Of a DNA stretch of 64,000 nt, positions 16,014 to 33,790 are shown in pieces. The DNA lies in assembly GCF_010894455.1 (NCBI RefSeq), contig NZ_JAAIXY010000008.1:186001-250000 (forward strand), given 5' to 3'. Both the position numbers and the translations under genes were made by a program. A model generated the notes under the pieces. It was not told the DNA's origin. It was given only the letters and a program-made list of their open reading frames with translations, and searched no databases. Position 1 is the first letter of the stretch; each line of letters starts with the position of its first letter. This DNA is from Myxococcus eversor. Lineage in GTDB: Bacteria; Myxococcota; Myxococcia; Myxococcales; Myxococcaceae.

Positions 16014-18758
16014 TCAGTGCACGCGGGCGGGCGGCAGGTTGGACGGCACCAGGCCCACGGACTTGAGGCCCGCCGTCGGCGCGCACACCAGCGCCTTCAA
16101 GTCATCGGCGCGCCGGGTGAGGTCGTCGAACGTGCGCACCGACTTCGTCATCGGGTCCGTCACCGTGGTGCCTCGCAGGTAGGGCGACAGCGCCGACGTC
16201 GCACCTCTTGAGCGAGGGGCCACGTGGACGAACTCCGTCTGCGTCTCACCCGCGTGACAGCCGCTGCACGTGTTGAGGGAGAACTTGTGGCGCACCTCGT
16301 TCGACACGTTCGGCGCGCGCCAGAAGAAGTCCAGCGGCACCAGCGAGTGGGCCGCGAGGAACGGGAAGCCCCCGAAGGTGTCGGGCACCACGTGCCGTTC
16401 CGCGAGCACGTCCGCGCTGTTCTCCGTCAGGTAGGTGGCCAGCAGTTGCGTGTTCTCGAAGTGCATCGCGGGCGTCAGCTTCGTCGTCGCCGGCATCAGG
16501 CCGAGCGGCGAGAGGATGAACTCGCGCATCTCCCACGGCTCCGCGAGCTCGATTTCATTGGTGCGAATCTGGTTCAGCGCGCTGCCCTCGTGCCGACCCG
16601 TCATCACCCCCCGCTTCGAGAAGCGGTCCGTGAGTGCCTGGAGCTTCGCGTTGTAGCCCGCGTTTCCAACCTTCACCGTGCCCAGTTCATGCCAGTCCGT
16701 GGCCCAGCGCTGGATGGACTCCGGCGTGGTGCCGGGCAGGGCGTACTCCAGGATGACGGTGAACTCGAGCGGCACACCGCTCGGGTCCACCACGCCGTAG
16801 ATGAAGCGTCCCTCTCCGGCCTGGATGCCCTGCTCGCGCAGGTCGATGCGGTTGATGATGGCCAGCAGCCGGAACGGCGCCGAGTTGAAGTCCAGCGGCG
16901 CCGACGGCCCGCCACTGCGCGCCTCCCACGGCCCCAGCACGCGCGTCTGCATCTCCGGGCGCGGGGGAATCTCCAGCCCGTTCACGTTCTGCTTCCCAAG
17001 CCACGTCTTCAGCCACGCACGCACCATCGGCGACGGGTCCTGTCCACCCGCCAGCTCGCGCATCACCGTGCCGAAGTGCCACGCGCCACCGGGCGCCGTG
17101 CGCACCGGGTCTTCGACGACGGACAGCGCCGTAATCATCAGCTCGCTCGGCTTGTCGATGGTGCACTGGTTGGTGGGCTGGCACACCGTGCGCGACTCGC
17201 AGCCGTTGGACGCCTTGCCGTCGCAGTCGTAGTAGCCCGGCGCGCAGGTGGTGCCGCACGTGGCCGCCACGCAGACGCCGTCCGCGTAGGGGCCGTCCTG
17301 GCAGGAGTTGCCGCAGGTGCCGCAGTGGTTGGGATTCGCCGTCAGGTCCACCTCGCAACCGTTGGAGGAGCGGCCGTCACAGTCCGCGGTGCCCGGCGGG
17401 CAGCGCAACTCATACGCGGGCCCTTCGGCGCACGTGGACACGTTGCCCGAGGCGTCCTTCGCTGAGAGGAACACCCGGTGGCTGCCTCCGGCGCTGAAGG
17501 GCGCGGTCGCGGTGAAGCGTCCCTCCGCGTCCGCCTGCACCGTGCGCGCGGGGGTTCCCGTGCACGCGACGTCGATGAAGATGGCCACGGTGGAGTGGGG
17601 CTCGGCGGTGCCCGTGACGACGAGCTGGCGGCCGCTGTTCAGGTACTGCCACTTCACGTCCGTGACGCGGGGCGGGGCCGGCGGGGTGCCGTCATTCTCG
17701 TACTCCATGGGATTGGAGCAGGGGGAAGGCGTGGAGTAGCCGCCCGAGTCCTTGGCTCGCGCGGACACGGTCACCTTCTCGTTCCTGGCCACATTGAACC
17801 GGGCGGAGAAGGAGCCGGCGCCATCCGTGGTCAGCGTCTGCTCCGCGATGCCCTGGCAGGTGGCGTTCTTGAAGAGCTCCACGGTGACGCGCGGCTCCGC
17901 GCGGCCGTTGAAGGTGGGCTGGAGGCTGCCACCGGGCGAGCCCGGGTTGGTGTTGAGCAGCACCGGGGCGAGCCGCGGTGTGCCGTCGCCGTAGGGGTAG
18001 TCCACGGTGGGGCTGCAGGGTGAGCCATTGCCGAGGTCGTCATAGGCGCGCGCGGAGTAGGTGGCTCCGGGCGTCGTCGGGACGTCGATGGGGACCTCGC
18101 AGTAGTTGTTGGAGCCCGCCACGGTGCTCGCGACTTCTTGTCCGTAGCAGTTCGGGCCCTCGTACACGCGCACGGTGGCGCCTGACTCGGTGTGGAGCGT
18201 GAGGCGGCGGAGCCTTCCGATTTCAGCCTGCGTCCAGGCGGGCGCGGGGGTCTCCGGAGGCGTGCGGTCCACTCGGACGGTGTTGCCGAGGCGGACGTTG
18301 TTGTCCTCGCGGGTCTCCGTGGCGACGCCGTCCGGGTCCACCCTGGCGCTCAGGAAGTAGCTGCCCTCGGGCACGGACCGTGCGCTCACCGAGGCGGAGA
18401 CTTCCCGACATTCGCCGGAGCGGAGGGAGAGGCGGTTGCTGGTGGCCAGGAGGATTTCATTCGTCCCAGGACCCGAGGCGGGGGTGAGGAAGAAGGAGGC
18501 CTCCGTCGAGCCGGCGCCGCCGCCCTCATTGCAGAGGCGCGCCCGGACGCGCAGTTCTCCCGTGCCGAGGGCGGAAGGGCCGGAGACGGACTCCACCTGG
18601 AAGTCGGGGCCGCCGAACTCGGGGCCAGGCTCGGTGGGGTCGGGCCGGGGCTGGGTGGGGTCCTCATCCCAGTCGTCCCAGTCGGGACCCTGGGGCTCCA
18701 CGATGCAGCCCGCAAGTGTTCCCGCGAGCGCGATTGCCCACCAACGACGCGCGTGCAT
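16014..18758 (-). CDS. Large CARDB/Ig-repeat lipoprotein with C-terminal CxxCH motif
   Basis: Outer-surface lipoprotein of 914 residues: lipobox LAGC at about residues 15-18, Asp/Pro-rich linker, CARDB domain (FQVESVSGPSALGTGELRVR at about 52-71, EDNNVRLGNTV at about 155), then three Ig-like repeats (VTVSARAKDSGGYS and related) and Cys-rich GCEVDL..CGTCGNSC repeats at about 470-530. The last 350 residues are a separate domain ending in LNTCSGCHAGETQTEF, a haem c-type CxxCH site. Related myxobacterial proteins are uncharacterised. The single CxxCH could bind haem or metal. The ATG at 18758 places the lipobox at the expected position. Confidence 0.8.
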   Translation of the reverse strand: MHARRWWAIALAGTLAGCIVEPQGPDWDDWDEDPTQPRPDPTEPGPEFGGPDFQVESVSGPSALGTGELRVRARLCNEGGGAGSTEASFFLTPASGPGTNEILLATSNRLSLRSGECREVSASVSARSVPEGSYFLSARVDPDGVATETREDNNVRLGNTVRVDRTPPETPAPAWTQAEIGRLRRLTLHTESGATVRVYEGPNCYGQEVASTVAGSNNYCEVPIDVPTTPGATYSARAYDDLGNGSPCSPTVDYPYGDGTPRLAPVLLNTNPGSPGGSLQPTFNGRAEPRVTVELFKNATCQGIAEQTLTTDGAGSFSARFNVARNEKVTVSARAKDSGGYSTPSPCSNPMEYENDGTPPAPPRVTDVKWQYLNSGRQLVVTGTAEPHSTVAIFIDVACTGTPARTVQADAEGRFTATAPFSAGGSHRVFLSAKDASGNVSTCAEGPAYELRCPPGTADCDGRSSNGCEVDLTANPNHCGTCGNSCQDGPYADGVCVAATCGTTCAPGYYDCDGKASNGCESRTVCQPTNQCTIDKPSELMITALSVVEDPVRTAPGGAWHFGTVMRELAGGQDPSPMVRAWLKTWLGKQNVNGLEIPPRPEMQTRVLGPWEARSGGPSAPLDFNSAPFRLLAIINRIDLREQGIQAGEGRFIYGVVDPSGVPLEFTVILEYALPGTTPESIQRWATDWHELGTVKVGNAGYNAKLQALTDRFSKRGVMTGRHEGSALNQIRTNEIELAEPWEMREFILSPLGLMPATTKLTPAMHFENTQLLATYLTENSADVLAERHVVPDTFGGFPFLAAHSLVPLDFFWRAPNVSNEVRHKFSLNTCSGCHAGETQTEFVHVAPRSRGATSALSPYLRGTTVTDPMTKSVRTFDDLTRRADDLKALVCAPTAGLKSVGLVPSNLPPARVH

Positions 18759-33228: not shown

Positions 33229-33364
33229 CGTGGGGGGATGACCCGCGCTCCAGCGTGGGACGACTCCGGAGGAGGGGCTCTTACGCCGTGCCAGGAGGCT
33301 GTCAGCCCTGGCGCGGATACTCGCGATTGGCGCCTTGCTCCGCACCCAGAGGGAACCTCATCCC

Positions 33365-33790
33365 ATGACGAGCCCGCTGTCCGCCGCACCCGTGTCGCTT
33401 CCGCCGCATTCCGCACCGCCTCCCACACGTGTCGCAGCCGAGAAGTTCGAGCTTTCCCGGTTCGAGGGCGTTCTCGCGGACAAGACGAACCCCGTTTCGA
33501 ATCCGAGCGCTCCTCAGGAGGTCGCCTCCGTGGGCGTGGTGCCTCCGGTGGCGAAGATGGATGGGACGGTGCTCAACGGCATCTCCCGCTTCGTGCAGGA
33601 GCTGGAGCAGGGCCAGCGCGTGATGGACCACCTCATCCGGTCCGCGTCCTCCGGCTCGCGCTACTCCAACGCGGAGCTGCTGTCGCTCCAGGCATCCATG
33701 TACCGCTACGCGCAGGTGTTGGACCTGGTGAGCCGCATCGTGGAGAAGGGCACCAACGGGCTGAAGGACGTCCTCAAGACGCAGGTGTAG
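33365..33790 (+). CDS. SctI/YscI-like type III secretion inner-rod protein, orphan
   Basis: Protein of 141 residues. The N-terminal half is Pro/Ser-rich and unstructured. The C-terminal ~75 residues match the SctI (YscI/PrgJ/EscI) rod family: [20 protein letters not shown] followed by [20 protein letters not shown], with the family-typical helix-break-helix and C-terminal Gln-Val. In type III systems it polymerises into the needle base. No other secretion gene is nearby, so it either serves a distant secretion-like locus or has another job. ATG at 33365 after GAGGGA. The stop abuts the convergent OhrR stop. Confidence 0.65.

Follow-up and report, generated by a model that had tools for sequence, protein, structure and literature searches.

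Introduction

Inner rods of the SctI family serve as adaptors between the export gate and the filament of type III secretion systems, and canonical members such as PrgJ, YscI and MxiI are encoded within their type III locus. The systems closest to the gene described here are two myxobacterial ones, the 'long' NF-T3SS or T3SS* (MXAN_2434-2464 type) and the 'short' NF-T3SS. In their available parts, three papers call T3SS* needleless (PMC12075869, PMC10433427, PMC3459982), and two of these present it as an open question of myxobacterial predation how T3SS* exports without secretin, needle or translocon (PMC10433427, PMC12075869). The Kil Tad pilus of M. xanthus, a predation machine that is functionally tied to T3SS*, has interchangeable tips according to the accessible portion of PMC12075869.

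Here we analyse an SctI-like gene from a 64,000 nt stretch of the Myxococcus eversor genome (contig NZ_JAAIXY010000008.1, positions 186,001 to 250,000; hereafter the window). The encoded protein resembles the T3SS* rod in family, in diagnostic residues and in a C-terminal region ending in TQV, and its FEGVLADK box is the counterpart of FDGVLADK there. Unlike the T3SS* rod it is encoded at an unlinked site, is preceded by an own TGTCAG-N10-GATACT element and is about 45 residues shorter at the N-terminus. With the rod of the 'short' system it shares the family and the predicted region, but it differs at most diagnostic columns and falls into a separate clade. To canonical inner rods it is linked by a match to Pfam family PF17001, but with a weak profile score. 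In the titles and abstract openings of the open-licence papers listed by our literature searches, neither unlinked rods nor needle-like genes are described for myxobacterial T3SS*.

Results

Identification of the inner-rod gene

The gene (positions 33365-33790, forward strand) has an ATG start and encodes 141 amino acids followed by a stop codon. Counted from a TTG at 33335, its frame has G+C contents of 0.66, 0.45 and 0.87 at the three codon positions, which is typical of coding DNA here. Residues 66-140 (33560-33784, +), a predicted helical hairpin with the TQV end, match PF17001 (SctI/YscI) with E 6.5e-4 and 20.5 bits. This agrees with the original observation that the C-terminal ~75 residues match the SctI rod family, at a score below the curated cut-off of 32.4. 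The match to the NCBIfam SctI model was weaker (E 0.041, 14 bits; cut-off 39). We attribute the low profile score to the lineage, since the two in-locus rods of the same genome reached 26.5 and 21.6 bits and are likewise below the Pfam cut-off. PF17001 was found with E <= 0.01 in 40 of 47 aligned myxobacterial rods and was the sole family reported for these. Because both the in-locus rods and these 40 relatives match, the family call is sound despite the weak scores of the protein itself. In sum, the ORF is real and a member of the SctI inner-rod family.

The protein matched the rods of two type III loci on other contigs with E 9.9e-22 (contig C31) and E 3.7e-12 (contig C91), both encoded just upstream of SctJ. 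Its identity to the T3SS*-type rod is 51% over residues 34-141. The N-terminal FEGVLADK box (residues 33-40; 33461-33484, +) is common to T3SS*-type rods, where it reads FDGVLADK.

A phmmer search of the PDB with the window protein returned a dynein light chain with E 3.9e-5, better than the protein's own SctI scores. We reject this match as chance: the alignment covers residues 40-114, mostly linker, and a profile of the 47 relatives does not find dynein. The best PDB match of that profile had E 0.4, and no rod of known structure was found among its matches.

For the structure model and the Pfam scan 47 of 52 rods were used. The AlphaFold2 model contains a disordered N-terminal half, a short helix at the FEGVLADK box (residues 31-38) and a hairpin of helices 63-96 and 102-140. 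The C-terminal helical hairpin is thus predicted within a low-confidence model (mean pLDDT 63.8, pTM 0.35), with a pLDDT of 75-88 in the hairpin block. A Foldseek search with the model returned nothing significant (best E 0.72) and, like the profile search, no rod of known structure.

Two type III loci on other contigs

The gene is placed outside any type III locus within the window and 22 kb of flank. When the 37 ORFs called in both type III loci were compared with this region (tblastn, E <= 1e-3), only the two rods matched there, in agreement with the earlier statement that the window holds no needle, ring or export gene. Calling the rod 'lone' fails for the genome as a whole (11.39 Mb, 124 contigs), which carries two SctV genes and two further rods on other contigs, i.e. 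three rods in total. Contig C31 contains a large type III locus for which Pfam supports SctI, SctJ, a TPR protein, SctN, SctQ and SctV; a FliA-like sigma factor, SctL, SctR, SctU and further LcrH-like TPR proteins were read from the sequence. Contig C91 contains a short locus with SctI, J, Q, R, T, U and V. In content and size the C31 locus agrees with the descriptions of T3SS* (MXAN_2434-2464) and of the 'long' Myxo locus given in the available parts of PMC10433427 and PMC3459982, respectively. Judged by gene content, it would be of the T3SS* type.

It had been proposed that an orphan rod could be scavenged by a remote type III-like locus. Two such remote loci do exist in this genome; nothing needs scavenging, however, because both come with a resident rod gene directly ahead of sctJ.

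A 93-aa protein that resembles the C-terminal part of SctU (L010:2532-2813) is encoded directly behind the full-length SctU-like gene in those T3SS* loci that we examined. Each of the two type III loci further encodes one of two related proteins of 160-187 aa (L009:7411-7974 and L011:16961-17443), which show weak C-terminal matches to the needle profile (E 0.066 and 0.041); the one of the short locus lies just upstream of the rod.

Relation to the rods of the two loci

In a tree of 55 rods, from which a fragment (L068) and an internally deleted rod close to a contig end (L071) were left out, all orphans are located on the T3SS* side, and the split from the short-locus rods is supported by 100/100. 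Among the orphans there are three clades; the tree does not fix how these branch with respect to the in-locus T3SS* rods. Ten of the last 76 alignment columns separate T3SS* rods from short-locus rods. At these diagnostic columns (52 rods; L049, L068, L069, L070 and L071 left out), the orphans show the T3SS* residue in 180 of 210 cells, the short-locus residue in one and neither in 29. The window protein has the T3SS* residue at eight of the ten columns and neither at two. By sequence comparison, the gene in the window thus encodes the third rod of the genome, at an unlinked site, and is a paralogue of the T3SS*-type rod lineage.

Since a short locus with a rod of the same family is present in the genome, one may ask whether the orphan rod serves the C91 system. 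The single short-type residue among the 210 cells and the 100/100 split argue against this, and we regard it as extremely improbable.

Occurrence and genomic site

At least one rod was found in 95 of the 96 family genomes (own included). Within the genus the orphan rod is intact in 16 of 27 genomes (own included), C-terminally altered in two (G057, G058; same site) and absent in nine. The nine non-carriers all have genomes of 9.0-9.5 Mb, and only two rods were found in each. Outside the genus, five of 69 family genomes have a third rod (G015, G040-G043). Three carriers have species names, namely Myxococcus llanfair..., Pyxidicoccus caerfyrddinensis and Myxococcus dinghuensis; the same search also found a T3SS*-type rod in a metagenome-assembled genome. 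Four orphan rods are altered or fragmentary (L049 in G064, L068 in G073, L069 in G057 and L070 in G058): three are without the usual C-terminus, one is without the N-terminal part. Genome G027 gave three rod matches, the extra one being L071, which is of the in-locus type and was not counted as an orphan.

Nine of the 16 intact genus carriers (own included) have both flanks largely in common, comprising a pair of related proteins upstream and a large part of the downstream flank. Six keep the downstream side only, up to a GDSL-like protein and a serine hydrolase, and one (G079) has neither flank. By Pfam, the downstream neighbours are MarR, response regulator, HTH, GDSL and beta-lactamase-fold proteins. 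Only one of the two upstream proteins gave a Pfam match, an NADP-binding one below the cut-off. No close copy of the upstream neighbour was found in the nine non-carriers (matches at most 34% identical, no match in two genomes), and both gain and loss of the rod would fit this.

A CARDB/Ig-like protein is encoded about 15 kb from the orphan rod (window positions 16014-18758, reverse strand), and homologues occur near the third rod in all four loci fetched from genera g8 and g9 (L064-L067). This is perhaps the trace of an older shared site.

An unlinked gene among regulators and enzymes without a known tie to secretion could have taken on a role other than type III secretion. Co-option of this kind, which the original prediction had also allowed for, appears less likely because the orphan rod retains the T3SS*-specific residues; moreover, further rod genes are present in all 26 other genus genomes and in every genome with a third rod. 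We consider it quite unlikely.

Upstream element

A promoter-like element, TGTCAG-N10-GATACT, lies 44-65 bp before the start codon (33300-33321, +). Among 24 orphan upstream stretches (21 intact, 3 altered) it is exact in 20 and has at most one mismatch in 23, with two mismatches in one altered copy; it is placed 50-69 bp before the start. In 12 representatives chosen by hand from the 24, 11 of the 12 core columns are invariant compared to none of the 65 spacer and flank columns. The element is retained where the gene sits elsewhere, in G040-G043 and, with one mismatch, in G079.

The exact pattern occurs 35 times in the 96 genomes compared to three times for a reversed control, and 20 of the 35 occurrences precede orphan rods. 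Five of the other 15 precede a gene for a 63-aa protein in genera g3 and g7. The family of this protein (L151-L153, L157, L158, L180-L190; genera g3, g7 and g20) ends in ..PRSEGEALLRRIFSR.. and its clear members have the element with at most two mismatches in 10 of 11 cases, about 53-58 bp before the start; four weak matches (L191-L194) were left out of the family count.

Four stretches that surround the two type III loci lack the element, bar one near match. The single one-mismatch match to TGTCAG-N9-GGATACT in this genome lies inside the sigma-like gene of the T3SS* locus. An element common to the orphan rod and the T3SS* locus was rejected, as at most two mismatches were seen in only three of 17 T3SS*-type upstream stretches. 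Before needle-like genes (see below) the rod element was absent from the 22 stretches examined, the best having four mismatches. With up to two mismatches the pattern occurs 40 times in this genome and the reversed control 46 times; therefore no regulon can be claimed here. We infer that the element would be a promoter read under particular conditions. Since it was not seen around the type III loci or before needle-like genes, control of the orphan rod is probably separate from that of T3SS*.

Selection on the orphan rods

For 15 pairs, chosen by hand among the 21 intact orphans, dN/dS of the whole gene ranged from 0.06 to 0.55. For the C-terminal 76 codons it was 0-0.35 in 14 pairs and 0.63 in one. 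These values come from simple counting on a short gene and are rough. The orphan rod is under purifying selection. Comparison of the intact with the altered copy in G064 gave about 1.1. The altered pair L069/L070 (G057, G058) gave 0.57 and hence seems to be still under some constraint.

The altered copies in G057, G058 and G064, the fragment in G073 and the absence from nine of the 27 genus genomes would fit a decaying duplicate without function. The low dN/dS of the intact copies and the conserved upstream element speak against this, and we hold decay to be very unlikely.

Orphans have a shorter N-terminal region than T3SS* rods, and this region varies more than their C-terminal part. Together with the own upstream element, this would suit a rod-derived regulator or early exported substrate, which would be recognised by the T3SS* export gate and build no rod. 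Such a protein would compete with the resident rod or time it during substrate switching, or would itself be released. Against this speaks that purifying selection acts on all of the C-terminal hairpin, the final residue included, as it does in the in-locus rods. We judge it unlikely, while a regulator or early substrate using the same docking surface would be the nearest rival to the reading that we prefer (see Discussion).

Needle-like proteins in T3SS* loci

The C31 locus encodes a 71-aa protein (L010:4686-4901) that matches the needle profile PF09392 with E 7e-4, below the cut-off. Relatives were found in 35 of the 96 genomes (L195-L238 among loci), as close-set copies in several genera and in some as single unlinked copies elsewhere. 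G003 has six of them in the interval from SctU to SctV. Six T3SS* loci were taken from genomes that had given no direct match, three of these being 9-Mb-type genomes without the orphan rod. In every one of the six, a profile built from ten of the proteins detected weaker copies (E 7e-5 to 0.008; 4905 frames searched).

PF09392 matches six of 31 needle-like proteins with E <= 0.01 (best 4.9e-5), and two unrelated families match one member each. The NCBIfam needle model matches one of 31 (E 0.0052), which is noise level since four other models match one or two members at similar or better E. Against structures, the profile of the needle-like proteins matched a 43-residue chain of 7y6c (E 1.5e-5) that the depositors labelled needle co-chaperone although it looks like a needle fragment; MxiH aligned end to end at only E 0.47.

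In 61 of 79 distinct stretches upstream of needle-like genes we found GGAAA[CT] followed by ATAA, most commonly as GGAAACT-N16-GATAA or GGAAACT-N17-CATAA. The 18 stretches without a GGAAACT-type element include most unlinked g8 copies and the g5 copies. An example of this promoter-like GGAAACT-N16/17-[GC]ATAA element precedes the C31 needle-like gene (L010:4593-4620). A scan of 12 stretches with this pattern gave 16 matches, each of them ahead of a needle-like ORF; shuffled sequences gave an expectation of 0 to 0.1. The GGAAAC part resembles an ECF-type -35. From weak profile scores, position and promoter, we regard the small T3SS* proteins as putative members of the needle family, with moderate confidence at best.

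Discussion

We consider it somewhat probable that the orphan gene provides T3SS*, the system for contact-dependent predation on the other contig, with an alternative inner rod that is switched separately. This reading draws on the T3SS*-rod paralogy, the diagnostic residues, the selection, the conserved element and the conserved site. The TGTCAG-N10-GATACT element would act as a promoter under particular conditions, and the orphan rod would be exported by T3SS* and replace the resident rod or mix with it. Export and rod exchange are suggested by the adaptor role of SctI noted above. The machine would then be built with a rod of shorter N-terminal region (141 compared to about 186 aa), which may suit another needle-like subunit, substrate set or prey.

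Several observations weigh against the alternative-subunit reading. The orphan rod is not essential, being altered in two and absent in nine of the 27 genus genomes. The window protein scores below both curated cut-offs, confidence in its modelled structure is low, and none of the Foldseek matches was significant. Furthermore, the tree does not fix the order of orphan clades and in-locus rods, and the upstream element was not found to be common to the T3SS* locus.

Overall, the data suggest that the predation machine may use interchangeable parts. In this it would resemble the Kil Tad pilus, since alternative subunits would be found in both; those of Kil are minor pilins, and no sequence relation is claimed. 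Our boldest reading arises from taking the unlinked rods and the unlinked needle-like genes together: T3SS* would be no needleless system; it would be a modular injectisome whose rod and needle-like subunits are interchangeable and whose filament can be rebuilt for different prey or conditions. Its parts would be the in-locus SctF-like genes, in tandem in several genera and mostly each with an own GGAAACT element, SctF-like copies at unlinked sites in some genera and, in others, rods encoded away from the locus behind the TGTCAG element. We put this forward tentatively, as a doubtful proposal.

A selected, separately controlled and unlinked rod paralogue, together with the needle-like genes, provides named genes for the study of T3SS* export. 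Needle-like genes in supposedly needleless loci suggest the retention of a needle-like protein in the earliest-branching type III lineage, and they speak against the needle loss inferred in the available part of PMC3459982. If the needle-like proteins are real, T3SS* would be a modular rod/needle machine.
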